This document shows, piece after piece, positions 3,965 through 22,402 of a stretch of 36,227 nucleotides of DNA. The DNA is from Burkholderiales bacterium (GTDB lineage: Bacteria > Pseudomonadota > Gammaproteobacteria > Burkholderiales > Burkholderiaceae_C). A program made the translations under genes and the position numbers. How positions within the stretch are numbered: the first letter of the stretch is position 1; each line of letters starts with the position of its first letter. The notes under the pieces were generated by a model that worked only from the letters and a program-made list of their open reading frames with translations, made no database searches and was not told where the DNA came from. The stretch spans positions 1-36,227 of the forward strand of contig JAGWTS010000009.1 in assembly GCA_028868875.1 (NCBI GenBank), in the 5' to 3' direction.

Positions 3965-4392
3965 GGTTGGGTCTCCTCGAGGTCTTTGGGTTTGCGGCGC
4001 GGCTTGGCGAGCAGCGCGCGGCAGCGCGCCTCATGCTGGGCGATTTCGGCGAGCGTGACCTCGATGTCCTCGCGCTGCTGCTGCAGGTCGCGGCGGTGCG
4101 CGGCGAGCACGGCGAGGAAGGCCTCGAGCTGCGGCGCCTGGTTCGAGCGCGAGTCGTACATCTCGACGAGCTGCTTGATCTCCTGCAGCGACAGCCCGAG
4201 GCGCTTGCCGCGCAGCGTGAGCTTGAGCCGGGTGCGGTCGCGCTGGCTGTAGACGCGGTTGCGCCCGACGCGGGTTGGCGTGATCAGGCCCATGTCTTCG
4301 TAGAAGCGGATCGCGCGCGGCGTCAAGTCGTACTCCTGCGCGAGCTCGGTGATGCTGAACGTTCGTGCGCCCGGGCGCGGTGCCTCGACCAT
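3961..4392 (-). CDS. liuR: MerR-family regulator of branched-chain acyl-CoA catabolism (LiuR type)
   Basis: A 143-residue MerR-type DNA-binding protein. The N-terminal winged helix (about residues 11-80) has the MerR block [20 protein letters not shown] (17-36) and [20 protein letters not shown]; the rest is a long coiled coil (85-130, [20 protein letters not shown]) for dimerisation. There is no metal-binding Cys loop. Fused by a 4-bp overlap to ivd, which is the standard LiuR context; LiuR is known from comparative genomics as a repressor of leucine/isovalerate use. A LiuR-like palindrome lies 14 bp in front of its ATG, suggesting autoregulation, and the same motif occurs in front of icmF. 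Confidence 0.88.
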
Positions 4393-4405: not shown

Positions 4406-4421
4406 TTGACGTAAACGTAAA
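4406..4421. promoter_or_regulatory. LiuR-type operator between liuR and the MBL hydrolase gene
   Basis: TTGACGTAAACGTAAA is an imperfect palindrome (arms TTGACGT and ACGTAAA, one mismatch, 2-bp centre). It fills most of the 38-bp gap between the two divergent ATGs, so a bound protein would cover both promoter/start regions. It matches the icmF upstream site (22381-22396) at 13 of 16 positions, or 15 of 16 against its reverse complement. The TTGACGT/ACGT core agrees with the LiuR motif as I recall it; binding by LiuR is inferred. Confidence 0.7.
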
Positions 4422-4430
4422 TGTAAGGCC

Positions 4431-5537
4431 ATGGCGAACGCGCACGAACACCTGCTGCAGTACCCCCTGGGCCCCACGCTGCCGGAGCGCGGATCGACCC
4501 TCGAGATCGCGCCCGGCGTGCGCTGGCTGCGCATGGGCCTGCCGTTCGCGCTGGACCATATCAACCTCTGGCTGCTGCGCGACCGCGACGACGAAGGCCG
4601 CGAAGGCTGGACCGTGGTCGACTGCGGCATCGCCGACGACGCCACCCGCGCCGCCTGGGAAAGCGTCTTCGCCGAAGCGCTCGAAGGCCTGCCGGTGCTG
4701 CGCGTCGTCGTCACCCACATGCACCCGGACCACATCGGGCTGGCGCACTGGCTGTGCGCGCGCTGGAGCGAGCCCGGGCACGAATGCCGGATGTGGATCA
4801 GCGCCACCGACTGGGGCGCGGCGCGCATGGCCAGCGCCACGTCGGGCAGCGTCGGCGGCGACAGCGCGGCCGAATTCTTCGCGCGCCACGGCCTCGTCGA
4901 CCCGGCGTCGCTGGCCGCGGTGCGTGAGCGGCGCGGCTACTACGCCCACCTCGTGCCGCAGGTGCCGGCGCGCATGCGGCGCCTGATGGACGGCATGACG
5001 CTGCGCATCGGCGCGCGAAACTGGACCTGCATCGCCGGCTACGGCCACGCGCCCGAGCACATCGCGCTCGCCGCCGACGGCCTGCTGATCTCGGGCGACA
5101 TGGTGCTGCCGAGCATTTCCACCAACGTGAGCGTGATGGATTTCGAACCCGAATCCGATCCGTTGTCGCTGTACCTGTCCTCGATCGACCGCTATCGCCC
5201 GCTTGCGCCCGACACCCTGGTGCTGCCCAGCCACGGCCGGCCTTTCCGCGGCCTGCACGCACGCATCGACCAGCTTCACGCCCACCACGAGGAGCGCTAC
5301 GCGGCGGTGCTGGCGGCCTGCGCCGAAGGCCCGAAATGCGCGGCCGACCTGCTGCCGGTGCTGTTCAGGCGCCGGCTCGACCTGCACCAGACCACGTTCG
5401 CGATCGGCGAAGCCGTGGCCCATCTGCACGCGCTGGCCGCCAGCGGACGGCTGCGCAGGCTGCAGCCCGAGGATGCGGAGCACGGCGTATGGCGCTTCGA
5501 ACGGGTCGAGGCGGGGGCGGGAGTGGTTGGGAATTGA
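4431..5537 (+). CDS. MBL-fold metallo-hydrolase
   Basis: A 368-residue metallo-beta-lactamase-fold protein. The metal motif THMHPDHIG (95-103) supplies H96, H98, D100 and H101; later ligands fit GYGHAPEH, the Asp in LISGDMVLPS, and LPSHGRPF. The C-terminal 90 residues look like a small helical winged-type domain (RRRLDLHQTTFAIGEAVAHL) seen in many LACTB2-like hydrolases. The substrate is unknown; related proteins include thioesterase-, lactonase- and glyoxalase-II-like enzymes. Divergent to liuR with a shared operator 10 bp before its ATG, so a role in branched-chain acyl-CoA metabolism, for example thioester hydrolysis, is a reasonable guess but not shown. Convergent with the YgjP-type gene. 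Confidence 0.85.
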   Translation: MANAHEHLLQYPLGPTLPERGSTLEIAPGVRWLRMGLPFALDHINLWLLRDRDDEGREGWTVVDCGIADDATRAAWESVFAEALEGLPVLRVVVTHMHPDHIGLAHWLCARWSEPGHECRMWISATDWGAARMASATSGSVGGDSAAEFFARHGLVDPASLAAVRERRGYYAHLVPQVPARMRRLMDGMTLRIGARNWTCIAGYGHAPEHIALAADGLLISGDMVLPSISTNVSVMDFEPESDPLSLYLSSIDRYRPLAPDTLVLPSHGRPFRGLHARIDQLHAHHEERYAAVLAACAEGPKCAADLLPVLFRRRLDLHQTTFAIGEAVAHLHALAASGRLRRLQPEDAEHGVWRFERVEAGAGVVGN

Positions 5538-5561
5538 CGGCAGCTGATCGGAGGGGTCGAC

Positions 5562-5617
5562 GGGCGGACGGCGCCCTTGGGCATTCCGTCCACCGCCCCC
5601 TGCGCCCCGTATCGGGG
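5562..5617. terminator. Hairpins between convergent MBL and YgjP-type genes
   Basis: This convergent gap (5538-5705) holds two stem-loops: GGGCGGACGG (5562-5571) pairing with CCGTCCACCGCCC (5586-5598) with a 3-nt bulge, then CCCCG-TAT-CGGGG (5605-5617). No U-tract follows on either strand, so termination is possible but unproven. Nothing else was recognised in the gap. Confidence 0.35.
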
Positions 5618-5705
5618 TCGCGTCCCTGTGGTCCGCCGGATGACAGCTTGTAGACGCCTAGTGTGCCCATCGGCGGCCAAATGCGCATCATCTGATATAG
5701 GGATA

Positions 5706-6521
5706 TCAATCGAACTTTGGCAACACCTCGTTTCGAAGCGTGCCGCGCGCCTGCTCGAAATCCGGCATGACCGAGCGCACGACGTCCCAGAACGCGGGGC
5801 CGTGGTTCATTTCGCGCAGATGGGCGAGTTCGTGGGCGACGACGTAGTCGATCACCGGCAGCGCGAAATGCACGAGGCGCCAGTTCAGGCGGATCGAGCC
5901 GTCGGCGCTCGCGCTGCCCCAGCGCGTCGCGGCCGAGCTCAGCGCGAGGCGCTTGACGCTCACGCCCAGGCGCTCGGCGAACAGGCGGCAGCGCTCCTCG
6001 AACACCCGCCGCGCCTGGCGCTGAAGCCAGCTCTGCACGGCATCTCGGATCTGCGCCGGCTCGGCGCCGGGCGGCAGCCCCAGGCGCAGGGTCGCGCTCT
6101 CGGCGTGGAGCAGGGCGCCTGCGGACTGGGCATCCAGGCGGATCGCGATGCGCCGGCCGAAGAACGGGATCTCGACCCCGTCGCGCCAGTCGACCCGGGC
6201 TTCGTCGAGGCGGCGCGCGCGTTCGCGCTGTTCGTGCAGCTTGCGCAGGATCCAGGCCGATTTCTCGCGCAAGGCGGCCTCGATCTCGGCCAGCCCGACC
6301 CAGCGCGGCGCGCTCACCGTGAGGCCTTCGGCGCCGACGACGAAACCGATGCTGCGCCGGCGTGCGCGCCGCAGCGCGTAGCCCACCACGTGTTCGCCGA
6401 AGCGGATCTCGCGCCCCGCCTGCGGATGCTTGAAGACGCCCGCGGCCGGCGCCGGAGGCTGCGCCGGCGCGCCGTCGAACAGCGAGAGCTGCAGCGGCTG
6501 GGCGGCGGGCGACAACGGCAT
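5706..6521 (-). CDS. YgjP/SprT-like zinc metallopeptidase (DUF45 family)
   Basis: A 271-residue protein of the YgjP (M48-related, DUF45) family. The zinc motif is H230-E231-L-A-H234 with H240 ten residues after the first histidine, in VVAHELAHLREMNHGPAFWD (227-246), followed by the conserved VVRSVMPDFEQ. Upstream, RLALSSAATRWGSASADGSI (191-210) is the family's second hallmark (TRWGSCS-like, here with Ala for Cys). The first 35 residues are Ala/Pro-rich and not conserved. Physiological substrates are not known. It is the last gene of the minus-strand block that starts at corC, about 40 bp after plsC. Confidence 0.85.
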   Translation of the reverse strand: MPLSPAAQPLQLSLFDGAPAQPPAPAAGVFKHPQAGREIRFGEHVVGYALRRARRRSIGFVVGAEGLTVSAPRWVGLAEIEAALREKSAWILRKLHEQRERARRLDEARVDWRDGVEIPFFGRRIAIRLDAQSAGALLHAESATLRLGLPPGAEPAQIRDAVQSWLQRQARRVFEERCRLFAERLGVSVKRLALSSAATRWGSASADGSIRLNWRLVHFALPVIDYVVAHELAHLREMNHGPAFWDVVRSVMPDFEQARGTLRNEVLPKFD

Positions 6522-6561
6522 GGGCGGCGATTGTAGGAGGCCACCGCCCCAGCCCCGGGGT

Positions 6562-7338
6562 TCAGCTGCCGGGGTCAGCCGCGGCGGCCGCGGCGTAGGC
6601 CTCGGGGTCGAGGCGGCGCATCTCGGCCTCGATCCAGGCCTCGACCTCGCGCATCAGGTCCTCCGAGTTGCGCCCCACGGTAGGAATCGGCTTGCCGATC
6701 GAGACCTCGATCAGCCCCGGGCGCAGCAGGAAGCTCTTGCGCGGCCAGCACTTGGCCGAGCTCGCGGCGATGGGCACGATCGGCACCCCGGCGGCGATGG
6801 CCAGGCGCGAGGCCCCGCTCTTGTAGGTGCCCTGGCCGCCGCGCGGGGTGCGCGTGCCCTCGGGGAACATGATCACCCACACCCCCTGGGCGAACAGCCG
6901 CTTGCCCTGGGCCGCGACGCGGCGCCAGGCTTCTGAGCGGCGGGCGCGGTCGATGTGGATCATGTCCATGCGCGCCATCGCCCAGCCGAAGAACGGGATC
7001 CACAGGAGCTCGCGCTTGAACACGTAGGCCAGCGGATGCGGCATCAGCGTCGGATAGGCGAAGGTCTCCCAGGTCGACTGGTGCTTGGGCGCGAGCAGCA
7101 CCGCGCTCTTGGCGTCGGCCGCGCTCGGCACGTTCTCCAGGCCGTGCACGCGGTAGCGCACGCCGCAGATCCAGCGCGCGCCGAAGATCGCCGCGCGCAG
7201 CCAGCCGACGCAGCTCCAGTAGACCGGCGCACCGCGCGCGAAGACCGAGATCAGCAGCACCGCCAGCGCCCAGGGAACGACGGTGAGCGCCAGCCACAGC
7301 ACGAACAGCGCCGAGCGCAAGCCCCAGACGAGACGCAT
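6562..7338 (-). CDS. plsC: 1-acyl-sn-glycerol-3-phosphate acyltransferase (PlsC family)
   Basis: Transfers an acyl chain to the sn-2 position of lysophosphatidic acid to make phosphatidic acid at the inner membrane. The 258 residues begin with a hydrophobic helix (5-34). The acyltransferase motif I reads KHQSTWET (85-92), that is H86-X4-E91 instead of the textbook HX4D; motif III is FPEGTRTPRG (158-167) and motif IV VPIVPIA (185-191). The ATG at 7338 shares one base with the gmhB stop codon (TGATG), which fixes the start and implies translational coupling. A longer in-frame extension exists upstream but would run through gmhB. Confidence 0.9.
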   Translation of the reverse strand: MRLVWGLRSALFVLWLALTVVPWALAVLLISVFARGAPVYWSCVGWLRAAIFGARWICGVRYRVHGLENVPSAADAKSAVLLAPKHQSTWETFAYPTLMPHPLAYVFKRELLWIPFFGWAMARMDMIHIDRARRSEAWRRVAAQGKRLFAQGVWVIMFPEGTRTPRGGQGTYKSGASRLAIAAGVPIVPIAASSAKCWPRKSFLLRPGLIEVSIGKPIPTVGRNSEDLMREVEAWIEAEMRRLDPEAYAAAAAADPGS

Positions 7339-7934
7339 CAGGAGAGTCCTCCGCTTTCCGAATCGACGACATGGTCGCGCTCGAGCAGGAACTCGGCGAA
7401 GGCCGGCAGATCGGCATGCGCATGGGTGCCGGGCACCTGGGCCAGCATCTCGTGGAGTTGCGAGTCGCCGATGGCGCTGGCGCGCCCGGTCAACACGAGA
7501 TGCGGCTCGCAGCCCGCGGCGCGCGCGGCCAGCAGGTCGCGCAAGGTGTCCCCGACCATCGGCACCTGGCGCAGGTCGACGCCGTAGCGGCGGCCGATGT
7601 CGAGCATCATGCCCGGCATCGGCTTGCGGCAGTTGCAATGCTCCTCGGGCGTGTGCGGGCAGTAGAAGACGGCGTCGACGCGCGCGCCCTGCTGCAGCAG
7701 GCACTGGTTCATGCGCAGGTGCACGGCGTTGATCGAGGACATGTCGATCATGCCGCGGCCGATGCCCGCCTGGTTCGTCGCCACCACCGCATGCCAGCCG
7801 GCATGGTTCAGGCGCGAGACCGCTTCGAGCGCGCCCTTGATCGGCAGCCACTCGTCGGGCGCCTTGACGTGGTCTTCGCGGTATTCGTTGAGGATGCCGT
7901 CACGCCCGAGGATCACGAGCTTGGTCGAGTGCAT
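7338..7934 (-). CDS. gmhB: D-glycero-beta-D-manno-heptose-1,7-bisphosphate 7-phosphatase homologue with altered HAD motif I
   Basis: A 198-residue HAD-IIIA protein. GmhB dephosphorylates heptose-1,7-bisphosphate on the way to ADP-heptose for lipopolysaccharide. Most of the family is recognisable: VVATNQAGIGRG (50-61), the zinc loop C92-P-H94 ... C100-N-C102, CRKPMPGM with K104, and VGDTLRD (127-133) with D129. Motif I, however, reads LVILGRDGILNE (6-17) where the family has DxDGT: the nucleophilic Asp is Gly10 and the Thr is Ile14, while the acid/base D12 remains. The codon is GGG, two changes away from GAC. Either the protein is catalytically weak or it has another function. It lies between glyS (20 bp) and plsC (1-base overlap). 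Confidence 0.85.
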   Translation of the reverse strand: MHSTKLVILGRDGILNEYREDHVKAPDEWLPIKGALEAVSRLNHAGWHAVVATNQAGIGRGMIDMSSINAVHLRMNQCLLQQGARVDAVFYCPHTPEEHCNCRKPMPGMMLDIGRRYGVDLRQVPMVGDTLRDLLAARAAGCEPHLVLTGRASAIGDSQLHEMLAQVPGTHAHADLPAFAEFLLERDHVVDSESGGLS

Positions 7935-7954
7935 GGCAGCCCTTCGCTTCGGGT

Positions 7955-10069
7955 TCAGCCGGCCAGGCGCGACAGGTCGGCGACGCGGTTCATCGCCTGC
8001 TGCAGCGTCCCGAGCAAGGCCAGGCGGTTGCGGCGCAGCGCGGGATCGTCGGCGTTGACCATCACGGCGTCGAAGAAGGCGTCCACCGGCTGCTTGAGCG
8101 CGGCCAGCGCCTGCAGCGAGGCGGTGAAGTCGCCGCGCTCGAAGGCCGCGCTCGCGCCCGGCCCGACCGCGGCCAGCGCCGCGTGCAGCGCCGCCTCGGC
8201 GGGCTCGGCGAGCAAGGCCGCGTCGACCGCGCCGGCGCCCTCGGCCCCCGACTTCCTCAGGATGTTGACGACGCGCTTGTTCGCCGCCGCCAGCGCCGCC
8301 GATTCGGGCAGGGCCGCGAAGGCGCGCACCGCCGCCAGGCGCTTGGGCACGAGGCGGAAATCGGTCGGCGTGCCGAGTTCGAGCACCGCCGCCACCTCGG
8401 CCGTGCTGTAGCCCTGGTCGCGGAACATGACCTTGGCGCGGTCGACGAGGAACGACTCGATCTCGGCCGCAGGCGGGGTGACGAGCCCGGCAAAGGCCTG
8501 CTCCACGAGCGTCATCAGCGCCGCGGTCGGCAGCGCCAGGTCGCGCTCGATCAGGAGCCGGATCACGCCCAGCGCGTGGCGGCGCAAGGCGAACGGGTCC
8601 TTGTCGCCGGTCGGCGCCTGGCCGATGCCGAATAGGCCGCCAAGGGTCTCGAGCTTGTCGGCGAGCGCGACGACCACGCCGACCTCGTTGCGCGGCAGCT
8701 CGTCGCCGGCAAAGCGCGGGCGGTAATGGTCTTCGACCGCCAGCGCCACGGCTTCGCTTTCGCCGTCGTGGCGGGCGTAGTAGCCGCCCATCACGCCTTG
8801 CAGCTCGGGGAATTCGCCGACCATGTCCGACAGCAGGTCGGCCTTGGCGAGCAGCGCGGCGCGGTCGGCCTGCGCCGCGAGCGGCGCGCCGCCCAGCGCC
8901 TGGCCGATGCCGCGCGCAATCCGGCGCACGCGCTCGACGCGCTCGCCCTGGCTGCCGAGCTTGCCGTGGTAGACCACGCGCGCCAGCCCCGGCACGCGCG
9001 ACTCGAGCGACTTCTTGCGGTCCTGCTCGAAGAAGAAGCGGGCGTCGGCCAGGCGCGGGCGCACCACGCGCTCGTTGCCCTGGATCACCCGGCCCGGGTC
9101 CGCCGGACGGATGTTGCTCACGACGAGAAAGCGGTTCGTGAGCCGGCCCTGGGTGTCGAGCAGCGGAAAGTACTTCTGGTTGGCCTTCATCGTCAGGATG
9201 AGGCATTCCTGCGGCACGGCCAGGAACTCGGGCTCGAAGCCGCATTCGAGCACGTTCGGGCGCTCGACCAGCGCCGTCACCTCGTCGAGCAAGGCTTCGT
9301 CCTGGATCGGCCGGGCCCCGGCGCGCGCCGCCGCCGCTTCGAGCTGACGCACGATCTCGGCCCGGCGCTCGGCGAAGCCGGCGATCACCGCGCCCTGGGT
9401 CAGCAACTGCTCGGCGTAGCTGTCGGCGTCGCGCAGGGCGATCGTCGGCACATGCGACTCGAAGCGATGGCCGCGGGTCGTGCGCCCGGAAGTCAACCCG
9501 AGCGCCGTGACGCTCACCACCTCGGCCCCGTGCAAGGCGACGAGCCCGTGCGCCGGGCGCACGAAGTGGACCGTGGTCCAGCCGTCGGCGAGCTGGTAGC
9601 TCATCAGCTTGGGGATCGGCAGCTTGGCGACCGCCTCGGCCAGCGCCTTCTGCAAGCCCTCGGCCAGGCTGGCGCCGGACACGAGCTGGTCGAGGAACAA
9701 GGCCTCGGCCTTGCCGTCGCCCTGGCGCCGCAAGCGCGGCAAGGCGCTCGCATCGCTGCCCAGGGCCGCCAGCTTCTTCAGCAGGGCCGGGGTCGGCGCA
9801 CCGTCGGGCGCCAGGCCCACGGCGACCGGCATGAGCTTGTGGCTCAGCTCGCGGTCGGGGGCCCGGGGCGCGACGCCGGCCACGTGCACCGCAAGCCGGC
9901 GCGGCGTCGCATACGACGTGACCGCGGCATCGGCCGGCGCCAGCCCCTGGTCGCGCAGCGAGGCGGCGAGCAGCGCGGCAAAGGATTCGCCCAGGCGCTT
10001 CAAGGCCTTGGGCGGCAGTTCCTCGACGAAGAGTTCGACGAGCAGGTTCGAGTGGTCCATGGGGGTCAT
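7955..10069 (-). CDS. glyS: Glycine--tRNA ligase beta subunit
   Basis: Beta subunit of the bacterial alpha2beta2 glycyl-tRNA synthetase; it carries most tRNA-recognition parts. About 704 residues, the usual length. The N-terminus [20 protein letters not shown] is the family hallmark, followed by [14 protein letters not shown], and an HD-like middle ([20 protein letters not shown]); the C-terminal domain ends [20 protein letters not shown], with [18 protein letters not shown] as the DALR-type anticodon-binding end. The ATG at 10069 overlaps the glyQ stop by 4 bp (ATGA); MDHSN at 10060 is a possible alternative start. The frame stays open upstream of the ATG but that part lies within glyQ. Confidence 0.96.
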
Positions 10070-10959
10070 GCCTGGGCCTGGACCCAGGCGCGCGGCGCCA
10101 TCGGGAAATCGAGCCGCGCCCGGCTTTCGAGATAGGCCTGGGCGACGGTGCGCGCGAGGTTGCGGATGCGGCCGATGTAGGCCGCGCGTTCGGTCACGCT
10201 GATCGCGCCGCGGGCGTCGAGCAGGTTGAAGGTGTGGGCGGCCTTCAGCAGTTGTTCGTAGGCGGGCAGGGCGAGCTGCTGCGCCATCAGGTGCTTCGAC
10301 TGCTTTTCGTGCGCGCCGAAGGCGTGGAGCAGGAACTCGACATCGCTTTCCTCGAAGTTGTAGCGGCTTTGCTCGACCTCGTTCTGGTGGTAGACGTCGC
10401 GATAGCTCACCCCGGGCGCCCATTCGAGGTCGAACAGGCTTTCCTTGCCCTGGATGTACATCGCCAGCCGCTCCAGGCCGTAGGTGATCTCGCCCGTGAT
10501 CGGCTTGCAGTCGATGCCGCCCACCTGCTGGAAATAGGTGAACTGGGTGACTTCCATGCCGTTGAGCCAGACCTCCCAGCCCAGGCCCCAGCAGCCCAGG
10601 GTCGGGTTCTCCCAGTCGTCCTCGACGAAGCGCACGTCGTTGGTCTTCAGGTCGAACCCCAGCGCTTCCAGGCTGCCCAGGTACAGCTCGAGGATGTTCG
10701 CGGGCGCGGGCTTGAGCACCACCTGGTATTGGTAGTAGTGCTGGAGCCGGTTCGGGTTCTCGCCGTAGCGCCCGTCCTTGGGCCGGCGGCTGGGCTGGAC
10801 ATAGGCCGCGCGCCAGGGCTCGGGGCCGATGGCGCGCAGAAAGGTCGCGGTGTGGCTGGTGCCGGCGCCCACTTCCATGTCGTAGGGCTGGAGCAGGGCG
10901 CAGCCCTGGCGGTCCCAGTACGCCTGGAGCTGGAGGATGATCTGCTGGAACGTGAGCAT
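10066..10959 (-). CDS. glyQ: Glycine--tRNA ligase alpha subunit
   Basis: Catalytic alpha subunit of glycyl-tRNA synthetase; activates glycine with ATP. 297 residues, normal length. Signatures: [20 protein letters not shown] at the start, [20 protein letters not shown], the class II motif [19 protein letters not shown], and [18 protein letters not shown] at 10959 gives the standard N-terminus; a TTG at 10992 would add 11 residues with no family support. The gap to the P450 gene upstream is 35 bp, and it overlaps glyS by 4 bp, so alpha and beta are translationally coupled. Confidence 0.97.
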
Positions 10960-10994
10960 GGACGGCGCCTGGGGATCGCGGAAAACCCGCAAGT

Positions 10995-12437
10995 TTACGG
11001 GCCGGGCCCGGCGCTGCTTCGGCGGCAGGCCAGGCGCAGGCGCAGCCCGACCGGCGCCATCGTCAAGGCCAGCCGTTCCTGCGGCGGCCCGCCGTCGGGA
11101 GTGTCGACGCCGAGGATCTCGAAGCCGGCGAGCAGCATCGCGATCACCGTCTTGATCTCCACCAGCGCCAGGTAGCGCCCCGGGCAGATGCGCGGCCCGG
11201 CGCCGAACGGCATCGCGATGCGCTTGGCCGAGCCGGCGTCGGCGCCGCCGCCTTCGAGCCAGCGCCCCGGGTCGAAGCGCTGCGGGTCGGGGAAATGGCG
11301 CGCGTCGACCGCCGGGGCGCGGAACAGGAACATCACCAGCGCGCCGGCCGGCAACTCGACCCCGGCGATGACGCTCGAGCGCTCGGTCTGCAAGGCCATG
11401 ATCGGCGCCACCGGCTTCAGGCGCATCGTCTCGTGGGCGCAGGCTTCGACGTAGTCGAGTGCGGCCACCTCGTCGATCGACTCCGGCCAGGGCCGGCCGG
11501 CCAGCACCCGGTCGACCTCGGCGCGGGCGCGCGCCAGCGCCTCGGGGTTGCGCGCGAGCAGGTCGATCATCCAGGCCAGGGTGTGGGCGGTCGTGTCCTC
11601 GCCGGCCAGCAGCATCGTCTTCACGTTGCCCGCGAGGTCGCGGTCGGTGATGCCGCTGCCCGGGGTGTCGGCGGCGGCGATCATGGCCTCGATCAGGTTG
11701 CGCGGCTTCTCGCGCAGCGCCGGATCCTGCGCCAGGCGCACGCGCGCCTGGGCGATGAAGCCCTCGACCGCGGCCGCGACCTCGCGCACCGCCGCCGCCA
11801 CCTCACGGTCGGCGCGGCTGAGTCCCAGGCGCCAGAGCTCGAGCGGCGCCAGCGTGCGCCGGAAGATCGCCGGCATCAGCTTGTCCAGGTGCTGCTGGAT
11901 CACGTCGCCTTCGCTCTCGATCGTGTTCGTGTCGACCCCGAAGGCCAGGCCCGAGATCGCGTCGACGGTGTAGCGCATCAGGCTCGTCTGCAGCTCGATC
12001 GCCTCGCCGCCTTCTGCGGCCCGGCGCCAGGCGCCGGCAAACCGCGCCGTGACCTTGGCCAGCGACGGGTAGTAGCTGCGCAGATGGCGCGGGTCGAGCG
12101 CGGCCATCACCATCGGGCGCTGGCGCCGCCAATCGTCGCCGTTGGCCGAGAACACGCCCGAAAAGCCCATCGCCGCGGCCACCGAGACGATGCGCTGGGT
12201 GCGCCCCAGGCCGCCCGGGCGGTCGCGCAGGGCGGCGGCGCAGGCCTCGGGTTCGGCCACGACCATGAATTCGCGCCGCGCCAGGCGCAGGCGGAACAGA
12301 TCGCCGTGCGCGGCGCGCCAGTCTTCGAGCTGCTGGTGAAAGCGCGCCGGCTCGATTTCGAGCAGCTGCCCCAGCAGCGGCAGGCCGCGCGGGCCCGGAA
12401 GATCGCGCAGTTGGCGCGGGGCAAGGGTCGTGCTCAT
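10995..12437 (-). CDS. Cytochrome P450 monooxygenase
   Basis: A 480-residue soluble P450. Motifs in order: proline-rich entry [11 protein letters not shown] (13-23), C-helix DDWRRQR (101-107), I-helix oxygen-activation motif AGEDTTAH (278-285), K-helix ExxR at E336-R339 (HETMRLKP), and the heme loop [17 protein letters not shown] (411-427) with C418 as thiolate ligand. No fused reductase and no ferredoxin gene nearby, so it needs an external electron donor. The architecture and I-helix resemble long-chain/fatty-acid-type P450s, but the substrate cannot be read from sequence. Its ATG overlaps the lnt stop by 4 bp, tying it to the corC-lnt transcript; base composition is like its neighbours. 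Confidence 0.93.
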
Positions 12438-14817: not shown

Positions 14818-14863
14818 GAGGCTCGCGTCGGCAGTGGCAGAGTGCCGAGAATAACCCAGCCGC

Positions 14864-14918
14864 TTGACAGTTCATGGGGCTTGCAAGACAGTCTGCGACC
14901 CCCATATCGCAGGGTCGC
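14864..14918 (+). promoter_or_regulatory. Possible promoter and leader hairpin of the COG0523 GTPase gene
   Basis: A perfect TTGACA (14864-14869) stands 17 bp before GACAGT (14887-14892), a poor -10. Next to it two mutually exclusive stems can form: CTGCG (14893-14897) with CGCAG (14908-14912), or GCGACCC (14895-14901) with GGGTCGC (14912-14918). The hairpins lie 22 bp before the ATG. No Zur-like AT-rich palindrome was seen. Function is inferred only. Confidence 0.35.
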
Positions 14919-14940
14919 TCCCTTCCTCCCGCCGTCCATC

Positions 14941-15987
14941 ATGACCCCAGGCCTCATTCCCGCCACCATCCTCACAGGCTTCCTCGGCAGCGGCAAGACC
15001 ACCTTGCTCAAGCGCGTGCTCACCGAGGCCCACGGCCAGAAGATCGCCGTGATCGAGAACGAATTCGGCGAGGAAAACATCGACAACGACATCCTCGTCG
15101 CGGATTCGGCCGAGCAGATCGTGCAGATGAACAACGGCTGCGTCTGCTGCTCGATCCGCGAAGACCTGCGCTCGACCCTGTCCGACCTGGCGGAGCGCCG
15201 GCGCAAGGGGGAGCTCGACTTCGACCGCGTCGTGATCGAGACCACGGGACTGGCCGATCCCGGCCCGGTGGCGCAGACCTTCTTCATCGACGACGAGATC
15301 GCCGAGAGCTATCTGCTCGACTCGGTGCTCACCCTGGTCGACGCCAAGCACGCCGAAAGCCAGCTCGACAGCCGCCAGGAAGCGCGGCGCCAGGTCGGCT
15401 TCGCCGACCAGATCTTCATCAGCAAGAGCGACCTCGTCGGCGAGGCCGAGGTCGAGGCGCTGGTGCACCGCTTGAAGCACATGAACCCGCGCGCGCCGCA
15501 ACGCAAGGTGCATTTCGGCGAGGTGCCGATCGCCAGCGTCTTCGACCTGAAGGGCTTCAACCTCAATTCCAAGCTCGACATCGACCCCGATTTCCTCGAG
15601 GCCGACGATCACGATCACCACCATCACGATCACGATCACGATCACGAGCACGGCGAGGCCTGCGACCACCCTCACCACCACGCCCACGACGACGACGTGA
15701 AGTCCTTCGTTTTCCGCAGCAAGCGGCCTTTCAGCCCGGCCAAGCTCGAGGATTTCCTGGGCGCCATCGTCCAGGTCTACGGCCCGAAGATGCTGCGCTA
15801 CAAGGGCGTGCTGAACATGAAGGGCAGCGAGCGCAAGGTCGTGTTCCAGGGCGTGCACCAGCTCATGGGCAGCGACCTCGGGCCCAAATGGGCCCCGGGA
15901 GAGGAAAAGATGAGCAAGATGGTGTTCATCGGAATCGACCTGCCGAAGGAAGTCCTGCTGCAGGGTTTGGAGCAATGTCTGGTTTGA
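14941..15987 (+). CDS. CobW/COG0523-family metal-chaperone GTPase
   Basis: A 348-residue G3E-family GTPase (COG0523/ZNG1-like), a class of metal insertases and chaperones. Walker A is GFLGSGKT (13-20); the metal-binding CxCC motif is CVCC (67-70) in NNGCVCCSIREDL; the base-recognition motif reads SKSD (161-164). A His/Asp-rich loop (222-250, with runs such as DHDHHHHDHDHDHEH) sits between the GTPase and C-terminal domains and should bind zinc or another metal. The C-terminal CobW_C domain (about 254-340) follows. ATG at 14941 gives the typical start. The metal is not identified: zinc is most likely given the His-rich loop and lack of cobalamin genes nearby. dksA follows in the same direction after 119 bp. 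Confidence 0.9.
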   Translation: MTPGLIPATILTGFLGSGKTTLLKRVLTEAHGQKIAVIENEFGEENIDNDILVADSAEQIVQMNNGCVCCSIREDLRSTLSDLAERRRKGELDFDRVVIETTGLADPGPVAQTFFIDDEIAESYLLDSVLTLVDAKHAESQLDSRQEARRQVGFADQIFISKSDLVGEAEVEALVHRLKHMNPRAPQRKVHFGEVPIASVFDLKGFNLNSKLDIDPDFLEADDHDHHHHDHDHDHEHGEACDHPHHHAHDDDVKSFVFRSKRPFSPAKLEDFLGAIVQVYGPKMLRYKGVLNMKGSERKVVFQGVHQLMGSDLGPKWAPGEEKMSKMVFIGIDLPKEVLLQGLEQCLV

Positions 15988-16006
15988 TCGCGGCCGTGGC
16001 TACAAT
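15978..16006 (+). promoter_or_regulatory. Candidate sigma-70 promoter of dksA
   Basis: TACAAT at 16001-16006 is a good -10; the hexamer 17 bp upstream (TCTGGT, 15978-15983) is a weak -35 that lies inside the end of the COG0523 gene. The leader of about 95 nt is GC-rich and ends with GAGGGG, a ribosome-binding site before the dksA GTG. Confidence 0.35.
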
Positions 16007-16106
16007 GCCGCGCCTTCGACTCCCCGCAAAGCCGGTGGGGATCACCCCCCCGAGCCGGCGGCGGCCCATCGTCCGTAGTGCGCCCGAATAAGGCGAGGGG
16101 ATCCCC

Positions 16107-16769
16107 GTGAGCAAACCTCCAGCCAAACCAACGGCTGCCCCGAAACCCGCAGCCCGGACGCCCAAGGCGGGCGCGGCGGTCGCCGTCGCGGCCGAAACCT
16201 CCCACGCGCCGGCCCCCGTGGCCGGCAACCGATTCACGGAACGCTTTGCCCCGGCCGTCCGGCCGGCGGCGGCGCAGCACAACGAACTGATGGACGTGAC
16301 CAAGCCCGCCGCCAAGGCGGACCCCAAGATCGCCAATGCCTGGAAGACCAAGTCCGGGCGCGAACTCAGCGAAGAAGAACTGCTCGCCATGCCCGAGGGC
16401 GAGTACATGAACGAGAAGCAGCTCGATTTCTTCCGCGCCCGGCTCCAGGCGCAGAAGGACGATCTGCTGTCCAACGCCGGCGAAACGACGGAACACCTGC
16501 GCGAGGACACCTCGATCGTTCCCGACCCGGCCGACCGCGCGACGATCGAGGAAGAACACGCGCTCGAACTGCGCACGCGCGACCGCGAACGCAAGCTGTT
16601 GAAGAAGATCGCGCAGTCGCTGGCACGCCTGGAAAGCGGCGACTACGGCTATTGCGACGAAACCGGCGAGCCGATCGGCATCGCCCGCTTGCTGGCGCGA
16701 CCGACCGCCACGCTGTCACTCGAAGCGCAGCAGCGGCGCGAAATGAAGCAGAAGATGTTCGGCGATTGA
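16107..16769 (+). CDS. dksA: RNA polymerase-binding transcription factor DksA (cysteine-poor type)
   Basis: DksA enters the RNA polymerase secondary channel and, with ppGpp, adjusts rRNA and amino-acid promoters. 220 residues: an Ala/Pro-rich N-terminal extension (1-75), then the coiled coil (about 100-175) with tip residues D140 and D143 in VPDPADRAT, and the C-terminal domain YGYCDETGEPIGIARLLARP. Of the four zinc cysteines only C183 remains; the others are T186, S204 and A207, so no classic zinc finger can form. This is the form I know from betaproteobacteria. GTG at 16107 follows GAGGGG; ATG at 16290 would remove most of the extension and is the alternative start. Confidence 0.93.
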   Translation: MSKPPAKPTAAPKPAARTPKAGAAVAVAAETSHAPAPVAGNRFTERFAPAVRPAAAQHNELMDVTKPAAKADPKIANAWKTKSGRELSEEELLAMPEGEYMNEKQLDFFRARLQAQKDDLLSNAGETTEHLREDTSIVPDPADRATIEEEHALELRTRDRERKLLKKIAQSLARLESGDYGYCDETGEPIGIARLLARPTATLSLEAQQRREMKQKMFGD

Positions 16770-16849
16770 CGTGGTTCCCGTCCGGCGCGCGGCATTTGTT
16801 GTCGCAGACTGAAACCAGCGACGGCACGGGGCCAGAGTACATTTGACCG

Positions 16850-18562
16850 ATGGCAGAGAACGAAAGCTTCTTCCGCAAGGTAGTGCGCTTCGTCGCGAAC
16901 CCGGCCACCGACTGGACCGACCTGAGCGCGCGCCAGGAAGACAACCGCGACCTCGAGATCGAGAAATCCGAGCTCAAGGCGATGATCGAGCGCAAGCGCC
17001 GCAACGATTTCGTGCGCAAGCGCGAATTCGACATGCTGCGCAAGGTGCGGCGCGAAGGCCTTTCTCCCGAGCAGCTGGCCGCGCTCGGAGGCTTGTCGCG
17101 CCTGGACGATTCCGAAGCACGCCTCATCGATACCAACACCGCCCGGCCCGACGGCGTCAAGCAAAAGATCGACGAGATCGAACAGCAGATGGTGGGCGAC
17201 GGAATCGCCTCGGGGGTGCGGCGCCCGCCACCGCCGCCGCCGCGCAGCCGCCCGGGCTCGTTCAGCACCACGCCGATCAGCCCCTTGCCGCCGGCACAGC
17301 CGCTGCCTCCGCGCGAACTCGCCCCCCCTTCCCAGCCGGCGCCGATGCAGATGGCCGGCGGCTTGCCGCCGCTGGCGCCGCTGAACGAAGCGTCGATCGG
17401 CGAGCCGGCCAACCCCGGCGCGGCGGATTTCGGCCGGCCTTTCGCGGTCGAGGTGAGCGAAGTCCAGCACGACCCCGAGCTCGACGAACCCGTCATCGCC
17501 TTCGCCAACGCCGATTTCAGCCAATGCGAGCAGGCGCTGCGCCAGATGACCTCACCCGGCGGCAGCCGCTCGCAGCACGCCGAAACCTGGCTCGTGCTGT
17601 TCGACCTGTACCGCGCCACCGGCCAGCAGCCGAACTTCGAAAGCCTGGCGCTCGAATACGCGCACCAGTTCGGCTGGTCGGCACCGCAGTGGTATTCGCT
17701 GCCCAAGCTCGTCGCCGACGCCGTCGCCGAGGACGAACCCCGGATGGCGACTTCCTCCAGCGCTTCGCGCCTGATGGGCGAAGTCGGCTGGGTCTGCCCC
17801 GACATGCTCGACATCGACGCCGTCGGCCGCCTGCGCTCGCTGACGCTGCAGATGCCCCTGCCCTGGATCTTCGATTGGGGCGGCCTGCACAGCATCGACG
17901 CCGAGGCGGCGATGCAGCTCTCGATGCTGTTCCGGCTCTGGGCCGGACAGGCCCTGGAAATGCGATGGGTGGCGGGCGACCGGCTGTTCTCGGTCCTGAG
18001 CGAGGCGGCCCCCACCGGCGTGCGCGACGCCGATCCGGCCTTCTGGCTCACGCGCCTGGACGCCTTGCGCCTGGCCAACCGGGCCGACCAGTTCGACGAG
18101 GCCGCCATCGACTACTGCGTCACCTACGAGGTGTCGCCGCCCTCGTGGGAGCCCGCGCGCTGCAAGGTCCACGTCAGCGGCGCGTCGATGTCGACGCGCC
18201 AGCCCTCGATGTCGGTGATGAGCGGGGTGTCGACCTCGTTCCACGAATCGACGCTGCTCGACGAGCCCGGCGGCCAGATCGAGCAGGCCCATGTCGAGCT
18301 CTCGGGACAGCTCGTGGGCGACATCAGCGCGACGCTGGCTGCGCTCGATGGCCAGCTCGGCTCCTCGACGATCGTCGACGTGTCCTGCGCGCGCCTGATC
18401 CGGGTCGACTTCATCGCCGCCGGCGATCTGCTCAACTGGGTGCTGGCCAAGCGCAGCCAGAACCGCTCGGTGCAGTTCACCGACGCCCACCGCCTCGTCG
18501 CGCTGTTCTTCGGCGCGATGGGCATCAACGAGCACGCCAAAGTGCAGGTGCGCAAGGTATGA
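16850..18562 (+). CDS. STAS-domain protein with Pro-rich linker
   Basis: A 570-residue cytosolic protein without signal peptide or membrane segments. Regions: a charged helical N-terminus (1-115, rich in E/K/R), a proline-rich linker (124-165, PPPPPPRSRPG), a middle domain, and a C-terminal STAS domain (about 482-570; VELSGQLVGDIS, then IVDVSCARLIRVDFIAAGDL). The segment at about 335-390 (IFDWGGLHSIDAEAAMQLSM and GDRLFSVLSEAAP) follows the same strand-helix-strand-helix pattern and looks like a second, diverged STAS domain. Domains of this type act in anti-sigma antagonists and in MlaB-like lipid transport partners; no partner is evident here. Gene order dksA-STAS-hslVU is known to me from related Burkholderiales but the function is not established. 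Confidence 0.8.
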   Translation: MAENESFFRKVVRFVANPATDWTDLSARQEDNRDLEIEKSELKAMIERKRRNDFVRKREFDMLRKVRREGLSPEQLAALGGLSRLDDSEARLIDTNTARPDGVKQKIDEIEQQMVGDGIASGVRRPPPPPPRSRPGSFSTTPISPLPPAQPLPPRELAPPSQPAPMQMAGGLPPLAPLNEASIGEPANPGAADFGRPFAVEVSEVQHDPELDEPVIAFANADFSQCEQALRQMTSPGGSRSQHAETWLVLFDLYRATGQQPNFESLALEYAHQFGWSAPQWYSLPKLVADAVAEDEPRMATSSSASRLMGEVGWVCPDMLDIDAVGRLRSLTLQMPLPWIFDWGGLHSIDAEAAMQLSMLFRLWAGQALEMRWVAGDRLFSVLSEAAPTGVRDADPAFWLTRLDALRLANRADQFDEAAIDYCVTYEVSPPSWEPARCKVHVSGASMSTRQPSMSVMSGVSTSFHESTLLDEPGGQIEQAHVELSGQLVGDISATLAALDGQLGSSTIVDVSCARLIRVDFIAAGDLLNWVLAKRSQNRSVQFTDAHRLVALFFGAMGINEHAKVQVRKV

Positions 18563-18637
18563 AAGGGCCCCCCTCCCCCAAAGCGCCATCGGCGCTCCCC
18601 CCAGGGGCGGCGCGGGCCCCTTCGTGGCCCTGGGGGG
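18563..18637. repeat. GC-rich palindromic intergenic element
   Basis: Begins right at the stop codon of the STAS gene. It contains AGCGCC-ATC-GGCGCT (18582-18596), then a perfect 10-bp inverted repeat CCCCCCAGGG (18597-18606) and CCCTGGGGGG (18628-18637) enclosing a further GGGCC/GGCCC pairing. The layout resembles dispersed REP-like palindromes common in Burkholderiales intergenic regions. It may also act as a terminator before hslV. Only one copy is in the window. Confidence 0.55.
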
Positions 18638-18752
18638 CACCGCCAGCGGACCTGCAGAGCCGGATCCGCGGCGGTTGCTGGTTCGGCTGACCAGCCCGCC
18701 AAAGGGTACGCCAGCGCCGGACGTTCAGCCGGGCCATTGCCTGAACCAACCT

Positions 18753-18781
18753 CTTGCAACCGGGCTTGCAGGCCCCCAACT
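18753..18781 (+). promoter_or_regulatory. Heat-shock (sigma-32-like) promoter candidate for hslVU
   Basis: CTTGCA (18753-18758), 15 bp, then CCCCAACT (18774-18781), against the sigma-32 consensus CTTGAA and CCCCATnT. The expected transcription start would lie only a few bases before the hslV ATG at 18791, which would make the mRNA nearly leaderless; no Shine-Dalgarno sequence is visible, which is consistent. hslVU is a classical sigma-32 operon. Confidence 0.35.
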
Positions 18782-18790
18782 CCGAGCCTC

Positions 18791-19336
18791 ATGGAAAGTT
18801 ATCACGGCACGACCATTCTCAGCGTGCGTCGCGGGCCGGTGGTCGCCCTCGGCGGCGACGGCCAGGTGACGCTGGGCCAGATCGTCGTGAAGTCGAGCGC
18901 ACGCAAGGTGCGCAAGCTCTATCGCGACCAGGTGCTGGCAGGATTCGCCGGCGCCACTGCCGACGCCTTCACCTTGTTCGAACGCTTCGAGGCCAAGCTC
19001 GAGAAGCACCAGGGCCACCTCGCGCGCGCCGCGATCGAGCTCACCAAGGACTGGCGCACCGACCGCGTGCTGCGCCGGCTCGAGGCGATGCTGGCGGTGG
19101 CGGACAGGGAAACCTCGCTCATCATCACCGGCAACGGCGACGTGCTCGAGCCCGAGTTCGGCATCGTGGCCATCGGCTCGGGCGGGGCCTACGCCCAGGC
19201 CGCGGCGCGCGCCCTCGTCGAACACACCGAGATGACGCCGGCCCAGGTCGTCAAGCGCTCGCTCGAGATCGCCGGCGACATCTGCATCTACACCAACCAG
19301 CAGCACATCGTCGAGACGCTGGGCGAGCCCTCATGA
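18791..19336 (+). CDS. hslV: ATP-dependent protease subunit HslV
   Basis: Proteolytic threonine peptidase that forms a double hexamer and works with HslU to degrade misfolded proteins after heat shock. 181 residues. The N-terminus [14 protein letters not shown] shows a six-residue propeptide whose removal exposes the catalytic T7 (TTILSVRR, as in E. coli TTIVSVRR). Other family blocks: [36 protein letters not shown] and [19 protein letters not shown] at 18791 is chosen because it gives this propeptide; the frame is open 54 bp further upstream without similarity. Its stop codon overlaps the hslU start (ATGA). Confidence 0.96.
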
Positions 19337-20652
19337 CCCAATCGATGACCCCGCAGGAGATCGTCTCCGAACTCGACCGCTTCATCGTCGGCCAGCAAGG
19401 CGCCAAGCGCGCCGTCGCCATCGCCTTGCGCAACCGCTGGCGGCGCCAGCAGGTCGACGAGAAGTTGCGCGGCGAGATCACGCCCAAGAACATCCTGATG
19501 ATCGGCCCGACCGGGGTCGGCAAGACCGAGATCGCGCGCCGTCTCGCGCGCCTGGCCGACGCCCCCTTCGTCAAGGTCGAGGCGACCAAGTTCACCGAGG
19601 TGGGCTACGTCGGCAAGGACGTCGACACGATCGTGCGCGACCTGATGGAGGTGGCGGTCAAGCAGGAGCGCGAGCGCCAGATGCGCTTGCAGCGCGCCAA
19701 GGCCGAGGACGCGGCCGAGGAGCGCGTGCTCGACATCCTCGTGCCGCCGCCGCGCGGCGAAACTCCCGCGACCGAAAGCACGGCGCGCCAGGTCATGCGC
19801 AAGCGCCTGCGCGAGGGCGGCCTTGCCGACAAGGAGATCGACGTCGATGTCGCCGAGGCCAAGCCCTCGCTCGAAATCCTGGGCCCGCAAGGCATGGAGG
19901 AGATGGCCGAGCAGTTGAAGGGCCTGTTCTCCCAGATGGGCCAGACCCGGCACAAGCAGCGGCGCATGAAGGTCGGCGAGGCGCTCGAGCGGCTCACCGA
20001 GGAGGAAGCCGGCAAGCTCGTCAACGAGGACGAGATCCGCGCCGCCGCGCTCGCCAACGCCGAAGGCAACGGCATCGTCTTCATCGACGAGATCGACAAG
20101 GTGGCCTCGCGCAGCGAGCACGGCGGCGCCGACGTGAGCCGCCAGGGCGTGCAGCGCGACCTGCTGCCGCTGGTGGAAGGCACGGCCGTCACCACCAAGT
20201 ACGGCATCGTCAAGACCGACCACATCCTCTTCATCGCCAGCGGCGCCTTCCACCTCGCCAAGCCGAGCGACCTGATCCCCGAGCTGCAAGGGCGCTTCCC
20301 GATCCGGGTCGAACTCGGCTCGCTCAGCGTCGAGGATTTCGAGGCCATCCTCACCAGCACCCACGCCAGCCTCGTCAAGCAGTACCAGGCCTTGCTCGCG
20401 ACCGAAGGCGTCACCCTCGAGATCACCCCCGACGGCGTGCGCCGGCTCGCGCAGATCGCGTTCGAAGTCAACGAGCGCACCGAGAACATCGGCGCCCGGC
20501 GCCTGGCGACGGTGATGGAGCGGCTGCTCGACGAGGTCAGCTTCGACGCCCCGAACCTGGGCGGCAAGACCGTGTCGCTGGACGCCGCGGCGGTCGACGC
20601 CCGCCTGGGCGAGCTGGCGAAGAACGAGGATCTCTCGCGCTACATCCTCTGA
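19333..20652 (+). CDS. hslU: ATP-dependent protease ATPase subunit HslU
   Basis: AAA+ unfoldase that feeds substrates to HslV. 439 residues. N-terminal [20 protein letters not shown], Walker A GPTGVGKT (58-65), pore motif GYVG in [15 protein letters not shown], an inserted I-domain (about 105-225) rich in charged coils, Walker B VFIDEID (about 249-255), sensor block [20 protein letters not shown] and the C-terminal tail EDLSRYIL that docks into HslV. Translationally coupled to hslV by a 4-bp overlap. Confidence 0.97.
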
Positions 20653-20730
20653 CCCCGGGCGCAGCGGCCTGCCTCGGGCCCGCTTGTCGCAGGTCAAGCG
20701 CCGCGCGCAGCACCCCGTTACGCTGTTGCG

Positions 20731-21561
20731 GTGAATCGAAGTGAAGTCTCCCGCGCCCCCGCTCCCTGGGGCCTGCGCCATGCGGCCGAGGCAGGCGCCG
20801 CGCGCGTCGAGCGCCTGTGGCGCGCACCGCTGCTGCTGGCGCTGCTGCTGACGATCCCGGCGTTCTATGTCGAGCTGATCGATGCCCGGCCGCCGCTGGC
20901 GGCGCCGCTGGCCTACGCGGTGGCAGCGCTGGCGGTGGCCGCGGCGCTCGGGCAGACGGCGCGGCGCTCGACGCGGCCGCTGCAGCATCTGCGCGGCAAC
21001 CCGATCGACGCGATGCTCTGCGTCGGCCTCCTGGCCGGAGCCCTGCTGCCGCCGAGCCAGGGCTCGCAAACGGCGCTCGGACTGCGCCTGGGGGTTTCGG
21101 CGCTGGTGCTGTTGCGCCTGGTCTGGACCACGCGCCACCTCGTCACGCGCGGCGGCGTGGCCTACCTGCTGCTGCTGGCGCTGGCGGTGCTTTTTCTCTG
21201 CGGCGCCGGCTTCTGGTGGCTCGAACCCAGCGTGCACAGCCTGGGCGACGGCGTCTGGCTCGCGTTCACGACCGCGGCCACCGTGGGCTATGGCGACGTC
21301 GTGCCGACCTCGACGGCGGCCAAGATCTTCGCCGTCTTCGTCGTCCTGCTCGGGCTGGGCGTGCTGACGACGGTGACGGCGGCGATCGCCGCCACCTGGG
21401 TCGAGACCGAGGAGCGGCGCGCCCAGCGCGAACTGCTGCGCCGGCTCAGCAACCAGCTCGATTCGGTGCGCGCCGAACTCGCCGCCTTGCGCGCCGAAAC
21501 CCGCTCGGCCGCCTTGCTCCAGGCCGAGAGGCGCGAAAAATCAAAGCGCCAGCCGATGTGA
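20731..21561 (+). CDS. Potassium channel protein (ion-channel pore domain)
   Basis: A 276-residue inner-membrane protein. Hydrophobic segments at about 32-52, 58-76, 93-107, 117-132 and 143-160, then the pore loop with a complete K+ selectivity filter TVGYGD (184-189) in [20 protein letters not shown], and the inner helix (about 198-224). The C-terminus (226-270) is a charged coiled coil, probably for oligomerisation. No S4-like row of regularly spaced arginines and no RCK/TrkA domain, so voltage or nucleotide gating is not evident. GTG at 20731 is the assumed start because no ATG is available in frame before the first helix. Its last 21 bases overlap the end of coaX on the opposite strand. 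Confidence 0.85.
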
Positions 21562-22308
21562 CTGCATCACCAGCAGGCCGTCGAAGATCAGGGTGTCGAC
21601 GGTTTCGAAGCGCAGGTCGGTGATCGGTGCGAGCTTGACCGCGGCGCCCCCGGTCATCAACAGCAGCGGCTCGACGCCGGTGCGCTGAATCAGCTTGCGA
21701 TGCTGGCGCTCGATCGCCCCGGCCAGGGCGTTGGCGCCGCCGCTCATCAAGGCGTCGCTGGTGTTGGTCGGGAAGTCGACCACTTCGCCGGTCGGCACCT
21801 TGAGGCCGGCCGTTCCCATCTCGAGGGCGCGCAGCATCAGGCCGAAACCCGGCAGGATGAGGCCGCCGAGGAAGCGCCCCTCGGTATCGATCGCGTCGAC
21901 CGTGACTGCGGTGCCGACCATGACGACGAGCGCCGGACGCGCCACGCCGCTGGCGCAGGCGCGGGCCCGGGCGCCGATCAGCGAGACCCAGCGGTCCGCG
22001 CCGAGCCGGCTCGGGTGCTCGTAGCCGTTGCTGACCCCGGCTTCGTGCAGCGAAGGGACGACCCAGCGCGGCTCGACGTCCCACTGCTCCATCTGTTCCT
22101 CGACCCGCCGGCGCACGACCTGGCCGGCGACGACGCTGCCGAGCATGCTGTGCGGTGGCGCCAGCGTCGCCCAGTCGGTCTCGGCGAGCGAGTCGATGGT
22201 CTCTAGAAAGACTGCACCTTGGGCCAGCAGCGCGGCGCCGGGCCGTGGCTGGGCGTACAGCGCCCATTTCAGGCGCGTGTTGCCGACGTCGATGGCGAGA
22301 AAGGACAT
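21541..22308 (-). CDS. coaX: Type III pantothenate kinase
   Basis: Phosphorylates pantothenate in the first step of coenzyme A synthesis; the type III enzyme is not inhibited by CoA. 255 residues with the ASKHA fold: phosphate-1 motif DVGNTRLKW (7-15), GADRW (103-107), [10 protein letters not shown] (132-141), then [18 protein letters not shown] at 22308 gives the canonical [11 protein letters not shown] start; an ATG at 22374 would add 22 unrelated residues. birA, its frequent partner, is not in the window. It is divergent from icmF across 112 bp and convergent with the channel gene. Confidence 0.93.
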
Positions 22309-22380
22309 GCGATCCCCGGAGTCTGGGCCGCGATGGTAACCACGGTCGCGCCGGCCGGCCATCGGTGGCATCATCCACAG

Positions 22381-22402
22381 TTGACGTTTACGTCAACGTC
22401 AA
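22381..22402. promoter_or_regulatory. LiuR-type operator upstream of icmF
   Basis: TTGACGTTTACGTCAA (22381-22396) has perfect 7-bp arms TTGACGT/ACGTCAA around a TT centre, followed directly by a further half-site CGTCAA (22397-22402). It lies 24 bp before the icmF ATG. The reverse complement, TTGACGTAAACGTCAA, equals the liuR-MBL site at 4406-4421 except for one base. Control of icmF by LiuR is inferred from this match. Confidence 0.75.

Follow-up and report, generated by a model that had tools for sequence, protein, structure and literature searches.

The DNA analysed here, called the window below, is a stretch of 36,227 bp from a Burkholderiales bacterium (assembly GCA_028868875.1, contig JAGWTS010000009.1; C550 in our genome scan). 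It carries two copies of a palindromic motif that we propose as operators of LiuR, a MerR-family regulator of branched-chain amino acid catabolism. One copy lies between the liuR-ivd operon and a gene for a metallo-beta-lactamase (MBL)-fold hydrolase, and the other lies just before icmF, which encodes a fused isobutyryl-CoA mutase and G-protein chaperone. The features concerned, in window positions, are as follows.

2786–3964, minus strand: ivd, acyl-CoA dehydrogenase, second gene of the liuR-ivd operon (PF02771/PF00441/PF02770), with a 4-base overlap with liuR
3961–4392, minus strand: liuR, MerR-family regulator of 143 aa (PF13411/PF09278/PF00376, over cut-off)
4406–4421, no strand assigned: putative LiuR operator 1, in the divergent gap between liuR and the MBL gene, 13 bases from the liuR start (4392, minus) and 9 bases from the MBL start (4431, plus); a degenerate third unit extends to about 4426
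4431–5537, plus strand: MBL-fold hydrolase of 368 aa (PF00753 and PF21221), divergent from liuR
21541–22308, minus strand: coaX, type III pantothenate kinase (PF03309, 154.8 bits); 22308 is the probable start, in an open reading frame that extends to 22374
22381–22402, no strand assigned: putative LiuR operator 2, a 22-bp near-palindrome in which two 16-mers overlap, containing a -35-like TTGACG, ending 18 bases before the icmF ATG (22421) and lying 72 bases from the probable coaX start
22421–25705, plus strand: icmF, fused isobutyryl-CoA mutase/G-protein chaperone of 1094 aa (NF045497, 1937.8 bits; cut-off 1500)

A preliminary description of this DNA had reported two 16-mers, at 4406–4421 and 22381–22396, as a shared 7-2-7 palindrome. 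Both positions are correct, and the two differ by a single base once the second is reverse-complemented. The palindrome is perfect in the second 16-mer, whereas the first has one mismatch between its arms. Matches to TTGACGTTTACGTCAA with up to three mismatches numbered seven in the window, counting both strands, whereas 100 dinucleotide shuffles averaged 0.04; one of the seven, at 31553, is unrelated to the operators. The shared operator motif is real and far beyond chance. A scan of the whole genome (5,709,157 bases in 571 contigs), which had been suggested as a check, found exact TTKACGTNNACGTMAA at three places, namely C550:4406, C550:22381–22402 and C194:6917–6938, and the reversed pattern, used as a control, had no exact match in the whole genome. 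All three places precede branched-chain acyl-CoA genes. The C194 site, which the preliminary description had missed, carries a 22-mer identical to the reverse complement of the icmF element, 36 bases upstream of a gene for a 536-aa carboxyl transferase (liuB-type). Farther along C194, reading frames match Pfam families for enoyl-CoA hydratase, for biotin carboxylase with a methylcrotonyl-CoA carboxylase BT domain (PF21139) and for HMGL-like enzymes, and this gene content marks a liuB-type leucine cluster. Looser matches in the same genome were taken as chance, both at up to one mismatch (7 forward matches v 4 for the reversed pattern, with the two added places, C35:30157 and C433:10342, inside reading frames) and at up to two mismatches (35 v 41).

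Site 1 had been described as lying at liuR-ivd. It does adjoin that operon, but the MBL gene stands on its opposite side; since ivd overlaps liuR, the site would serve liuR-ivd in one direction and the MBL gene in the other. The LiuR protein contains a MerR N-terminal helix-turn-helix and a MerR DNA-binding region, both over the Pfam cut-offs. Its gene adjoins a branched-chain catabolic gene, ivd, and the predicted operators precede branched-chain catabolic operons and co-occur with the regulator. liuR gave the sole full-length match at E 0.001 in its own genome, and the names given among the 120 homologues listed in a search with the protein were generic MerR names. Three proteins adjoining LiuR sites in other genomes share 72–89% identity with the ivd product; all of its NCBIfam matches fell below their cut-offs, so we infer isovaleryl-CoA dehydrogenase specificity from context only. 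Three solved structures related to the MBL protein score above 440 bits (6ao1, 5u8o and 5i0p) and are named only as beta-lactamase domain protein or Zn-dependent hydrolase. Five further LiuR sites have a relative of 53–69% identity next to them, and this recurrent position suggests an acyl-CoA-related hydrolase. IcmF combines B12, MeaB-like G and mutase domains in one chain (PF02310, PF03308 and PF01642) and passes the equivalog NF045497. Its best solved relative is 4xc6 (1920.7 bits), the IcmF of Cupriavidus metallidurans.

We analysed two sets of related genomes. The order sample comprised 250 genomes of the window's order, 67 with IcmF and 90 with LiuR, and the named sample comprised 80 named loci retrieved on the basis of similarity to IcmF, a few of whose genomes may be in the order sample too. 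In the order sample, the exact motif was present in 83 of the 90 genomes with LiuR compared with 11 of the 160 without (P = 6 × 10−45). Motif hits numbered 226 against 6 for the reversed-pattern control in genomes with LiuR and 18 against 19 in those without; thus, the motif is at chance level outside LiuR genomes. LiuR is very probably the protein that reads this operator. A closer look at 14 genomes chosen from 50 of the named sample gave 67 motif hits v one control hit, and the sole LiuR-less genome among the 14 had none. The genes next to 51 sites (48 in 13 genomes and the three of the window's own genome) were clustered from crude gene calls, in which some singles may be spurious frames. 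With the own genes included, the clusters were icmF (9), liuR (9), a 252-aa short-chain dehydrogenase (9), the MBL hydrolase (6), methylcrotonyl-CoA carboxylase beta type (5), hotdog thioesterase (5), ivd (3), ETF (3), nitroreductase (2), coaX (2), one unnamed pair and singles. The preliminary description had set in advance that a lack of enrichment before branched-chain acyl-CoA genes would speak against its idea; this enrichment is present in the relatives, and its claim that a LiuR-type MerR regulator and one operator link ivd, the MBL gene and icmF was supported. The hotdog thioesterase, of ~150–160 aa, is found directly beside LiuR sites in L126 (1954–2427), L121, L138, L147 and L163, and may be a further member of the regulon.

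The association holds for icmF itself. Upstream DNA was examined at 74 of the 80 named loci, the other six having less than 200 bp, and in 40 of the 74 a site with no more than one mismatch lay no farther than 300 bp from icmF. LiuR was found in all 31 genomes with a site and in 11 of 19 without one among the 50 icmF genomes tested (P = 1.4 × 10−4); the LiuR call required at least 100 bits or, for G011, a gene truncated at a contig end, so that G003 (87 bits) counted as lacking it. In the order sample, a site with at most one mismatch lay within 450 bp of the icmF match for 32 of 45 genes in genomes with LiuR and for 1 of 16 in genomes without (P = 1.2 × 10−5, Fisher test), or 33 of 61 overall. 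These 61 genes came from 60 genomes and included both G182 copies and one G187 copy; the survey omitted G000, G076 and G266 from the 47 IcmF genomes with LiuR and G089, G150, G190 and G296 from the 20 without, and the G159 region had just 142 bp upstream. The sole LiuR-less genome with an icmF site, G102, is 84% complete. No more than 60 kb separates liuR from icmF in 13 of the 47 genomes with both LiuR and IcmF. From these genome comparisons, control of icmF by LiuR is very likely.

Conservation continued past the 16-mer in 41 icmF upstream regions (the window and 40 loci). The operator consensus, TTGACGTTTACGTAAACGTCAA, is a perfect 22-bp palindrome of which the previously described 7-2-7 element is a part. 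In 40% of 73 distinct icmF promoters, TAnnnT followed the operator TTGACG at exactly 17 bp, against a background of 0.2% (site register set by fit to the 22-mer; background taken from offsets above 35). The operator would thus overlie an ordinary promoter from its -35 hexamer through most of its spacer, a layout consistent with a repressor that acts by occlusion. We also considered whether LiuR might instead be a classical MerR activator that distorts a 19–20 bp spacer, given its family and that CueR was its best solved match (43.6 bits). None of the 73 promoters had TAnnnT at 19 or 20 bp, the spacing by which such an activator would be recognised, and LiuR is termed a repressor, of Ile/Leu/Val utilisation, in passages of PMC3223726; we regard activation as highly unlikely. 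With the full operator described as 22 bp overlying a promoter of -35/17 bp/-10 layout, further LiuR targets become predictable in other genomes.

What IcmF does within this regulon depends on its substrate. If 4xc6 carries a 20-residue tag, F599 and Q743 of the window enzyme align with F598 and Q742 in C. metallidurans numbering, and these two residues reportedly mark isobutyryl-CoA mutases, as Jost is said to have found in 2015. A motif search of the 80 loci found the Q in 80/80 and the F in 77/80, the other three being without a resolved call. IcmF could be under LiuR and yet belong to the leucine side, either interconverting isovaleryl-CoA and pivalyl-CoA or serving pivalate use. The enzyme acts on pivalyl-/isovaleryl-CoA as well as on isobutyryl-/n-butyryl-CoA according to passages of PMC10481361 and PMC9974510, and icmF has its regulon in common with ivd and the liuB cluster. 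We consider a leucine-side role very improbable, given the conserved F and Q residues and an exclusion with a valine-branch enzyme, presented next, that would not be expected from it.

The usual valine route runs through 3-hydroxyisobutyrate, and we scored 3-hydroxyisobutyrate dehydrogenase (HIBADH, mmsB) as present when TIGR01692 was over its cut-off. Scores in the order sample split cleanly, with positives at 329.7 bits or more and others at 237.7 or less. Among the 90 genomes with LiuR, 47 had IcmF only, 33 had HIBADH only, none had both and 10 had neither (P = 4.5 × 10−16). Counted by genus, the numbers were 30, 20, 0 and 3, with no genus mixing states, and three families contained both states (within-family permutation P = 0.00095). 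After removal of poor assemblies, 43 genomes had IcmF only, 33 HIBADH only, none both and 8 neither; the genome sets and coordinate lists for these tables, and for the site, motif and distance counts of the order sample, were transferred by hand, and the poor-assembly list was hand-made. In the window's genome neither a HIBADH over the cut-off nor a PF16113 match (E 1e-50) was found, and MMSDH is present. Together with the F/Q residues, the near-exclusion of IcmF and HIBADH points to valine-derived isobutyryl-CoA as the likely substrate. Two other candidate markers were set aside: PF16113, the family of the preceding hydrolase, was not clean as a valine-branch marker, and MMSDH was too common to be diagnostic (145 of 250 genomes). 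HIBADH relatives of ~206–222 bits, below the cut-off, adjoin or lie near MMSDH in three genomes of the order sample (G240, G223 and G095), possibly representing a second HIBADH subtype in LiuR-less genomes.

The usual valine branch can carry LiuR sites as well. We examined regions of 10–19 kb in 39 of the 44 HIBADH genomes (33/33 with LiuR and 6/11 without). A site with at most one mismatch lay upstream of HIBADH in 14 of the 33 regions with LiuR v 0 of the 6 without, with no control hit. Of these 14 site-bearing regions 11 were checked, and in 10 the site lay 62–262 bp before the match to mmsA, of the mmsA-mmsB (MMSDH-HIBADH) valine operon. LiuR thus seems to control the usual valine operon in some genomes and icmF in others. 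The mmsA-mmsB branch is chemically distinct, being an oxidation through 3-hydroxyisobutyrate without B12.

We therefore propose, at a probability of roughly 0.7 for the whole and on the strength of sequence comparison, that both window sites are operators of LiuR, that LiuR represses, and that IcmF fills the valine slot of its regulon. A LiuR dimer would bind the 22-bp palindrome across the -35 hexamer and most of the promoter spacer, and would let go once degradation products of leucine or valine build up. Its release would switch on liuR-ivd, the MBL gene, the liuB cluster and icmF jointly. IcmF would then take the valine branch, converting isobutyryl-CoA to n-butyryl-CoA for ordinary beta-oxidation to acetyl-CoA, and would replace the usual route, which yields propionyl-CoA. 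The valine role of IcmF is in itself probable. It is also reasonably likely that, in Burkholderiales with a LiuR regulon, a B12-dependent, valine-catabolic IcmF and the 3-hydroxyisobutyrate branch have substituted for each other repeatedly within the same regulon. The preliminary description had pictured something different, with one regulator routing isovaleryl-, isobutyryl- and pivalyl-CoA among IVD, the MBL hydrolase and IcmF according to supply. A common operator and an IcmF that accepts several acyl-CoAs would suit such routing, but a shared repressor would produce joint induction, and we saw no feature separating the sites by ligand. The HIBADH near-exclusion and the F/Q residues point to valine-derived isobutyryl-CoA, and we regard routing by supply as unsupported and very improbable.

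Several observations weigh against our proposal. The site was missing from 34 of the 74 named icmF loci, and from 12 of the 45 icmF genes of LiuR genomes even at up to two mismatches in the 1.1–1.5 kb examined; G099 has an exact site only at 1,048 bp upstream of icmF. Smaller rises of TAnnnT occurred at 12 bp (15%) and 15 bp (7%), at least partly inside the operator, and in the window itself no TAnnnT stands 17 bp after the TTGACG before icmF, which would leave the -10 of this promoter weak or at another position. Under a loose definition of HIBADH (E 1e-60), 11 LiuR genomes had both enzymes, 36 IcmF only, 35 HIBADH only and 8 neither, still at P = 3 × 10−8. PF16113 was found in 20 and MMSDH in 38 of the 47 genomes with LiuR and IcmF. 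HIBADH was over the cut-off in 4 of the 50 named-sample icmF genomes (G011, G024, G029 and G038), three of them with an icmF site. G134, which has no LiuR, has both IcmF and HIBADH, and the LiuR-less genomes of the order sample showed no exclusion. Finally, the comparison of 14/33 with 0/6 HIBADH regions gives P = 0.07 alone, and 19 of the 33 LiuR genomes, including all four of the window's family, had no LiuR site in the HIBADH region.

Some of these points would fit an exclusion that mirrors ancestry or lifestyle, for example B12 supply, with no replacement and with icmF as simply one more LiuR target. The order sample is a single order in which most families are uniform, and the grouping was by family and genus labels, from which shared ancestry is not fully removable without a tree; the co-occurrences in the named sample and the missing exclusion in LiuR-less genomes point the same way. 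Such an explanation has to accommodate the three families with both states, the lack of any mixed genus among those with LiuR, the within-family permutation result, the zero count of genomes with both enzymes after poor assemblies were removed, and the LiuR sites at HIBADH operons. We judge it unlikely, and retain the reading in which IcmF replaces the 3-hydroxyisobutyrate branch.

The LiuR regulon is known in Shewanella and other Proteobacteria, as passages of PMC3223726 and PMC5343134 describe, and there as here a MerR protein adjoins ivd and operators precede liu/ivd operons. The neighbouring genes in the present genomes are those of the known LiuR branched-chain regulon (passages of PMC3223726, PMC5343134 and PMC7238569) plus icmF and the MBL gene. 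The Shewanella members given in passages of PMC3223726 are ldh, liu, ivd, bkd, gltBD, thrABC and aceBA; icmF is not among them, and 'mutase' is absent from that text. In Rhodospirillum rubrum, the ILV box likewise precedes liuR, ivd and liu clusters as a LiuR box, but the authors of that study, who searched for an isobutyryl-CoA mutase, thought one unlikely to be present (passages of PMC7238569), whereas one lies under an operator here. A closer parallel in chemistry comes from Streptomyces albus, in which valine raises expression of an isobutyryl-CoA mutase gene by about 5 log2 units; its authors proposed that conversion of isobutyryl-CoA to butyryl-CoA serves there as a by-pass in valine catabolism (passages of PMC8176718). 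That gene is valine-induced and its product has the chemistry proposed for IcmF here; however, it feeds ethylmalonyl-CoA and polyketides, and neither LiuR nor HIBADH loss appears in the passages. The IcmF of C. metallidurans belongs to the same fused enzyme family with conserved specificity residues. The words 'physiological', 'operon' and 'valine' are absent from the main text of PMC10481361, and the present analysis places the enzyme in a regulatory and pathway context.

Earlier work already covers LiuR, IcmF and, for Streptomyces, the by-pass of valine catabolism. An icmF gene under LiuR is absent from the passages of PMC5343134, PMC7238569, PMC10481361, PMC9974510, PMC3223726, PMC9023270, PMC3562072, PMC3840689 and PMC8176718. 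In the literature passages covered, with RegPrecise and supplementary tables outside the scope, we found neither the LiuR-icmF pairing nor the HIBADH exclusion, and our literature search returned no paper joining isobutyryl-CoA mutase, 3-hydroxyisobutyrate dehydrogenase and valine. IcmF has been studied in depth both for its enzymology and as a B12-delivery model, but the passages of PMC10481361 and PMC9974510 say little on its metabolic place. If our reading is true, IcmF gains a physiological role, and valine growth of such bacteria is predicted to depend on B12. Two catabolic branches, differing in products and vitamin need, would then look like interchangeable modules under one regulator.

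Three minor observations concern the surroundings of these genes. coaX and icmF are divergent with the LiuR operator in their common gap, and a related gene is likewise divergent from icmF in L145; the same operator could therefore touch CoA synthesis. A CobW-domain GTPase (PF02492 and PF07683; probable start) lies at 14941–15987 of the window, between liuR and icmF, and may serve B12 or zinc. In L164 (C190; 1–400), a second MerR relative is cut by the contig end (57% identity over 35 aa), and a two-mismatch site at 367–382 precedes a divergent 304-aa frame; this could be a paralogue of LiuR whose operator is related.

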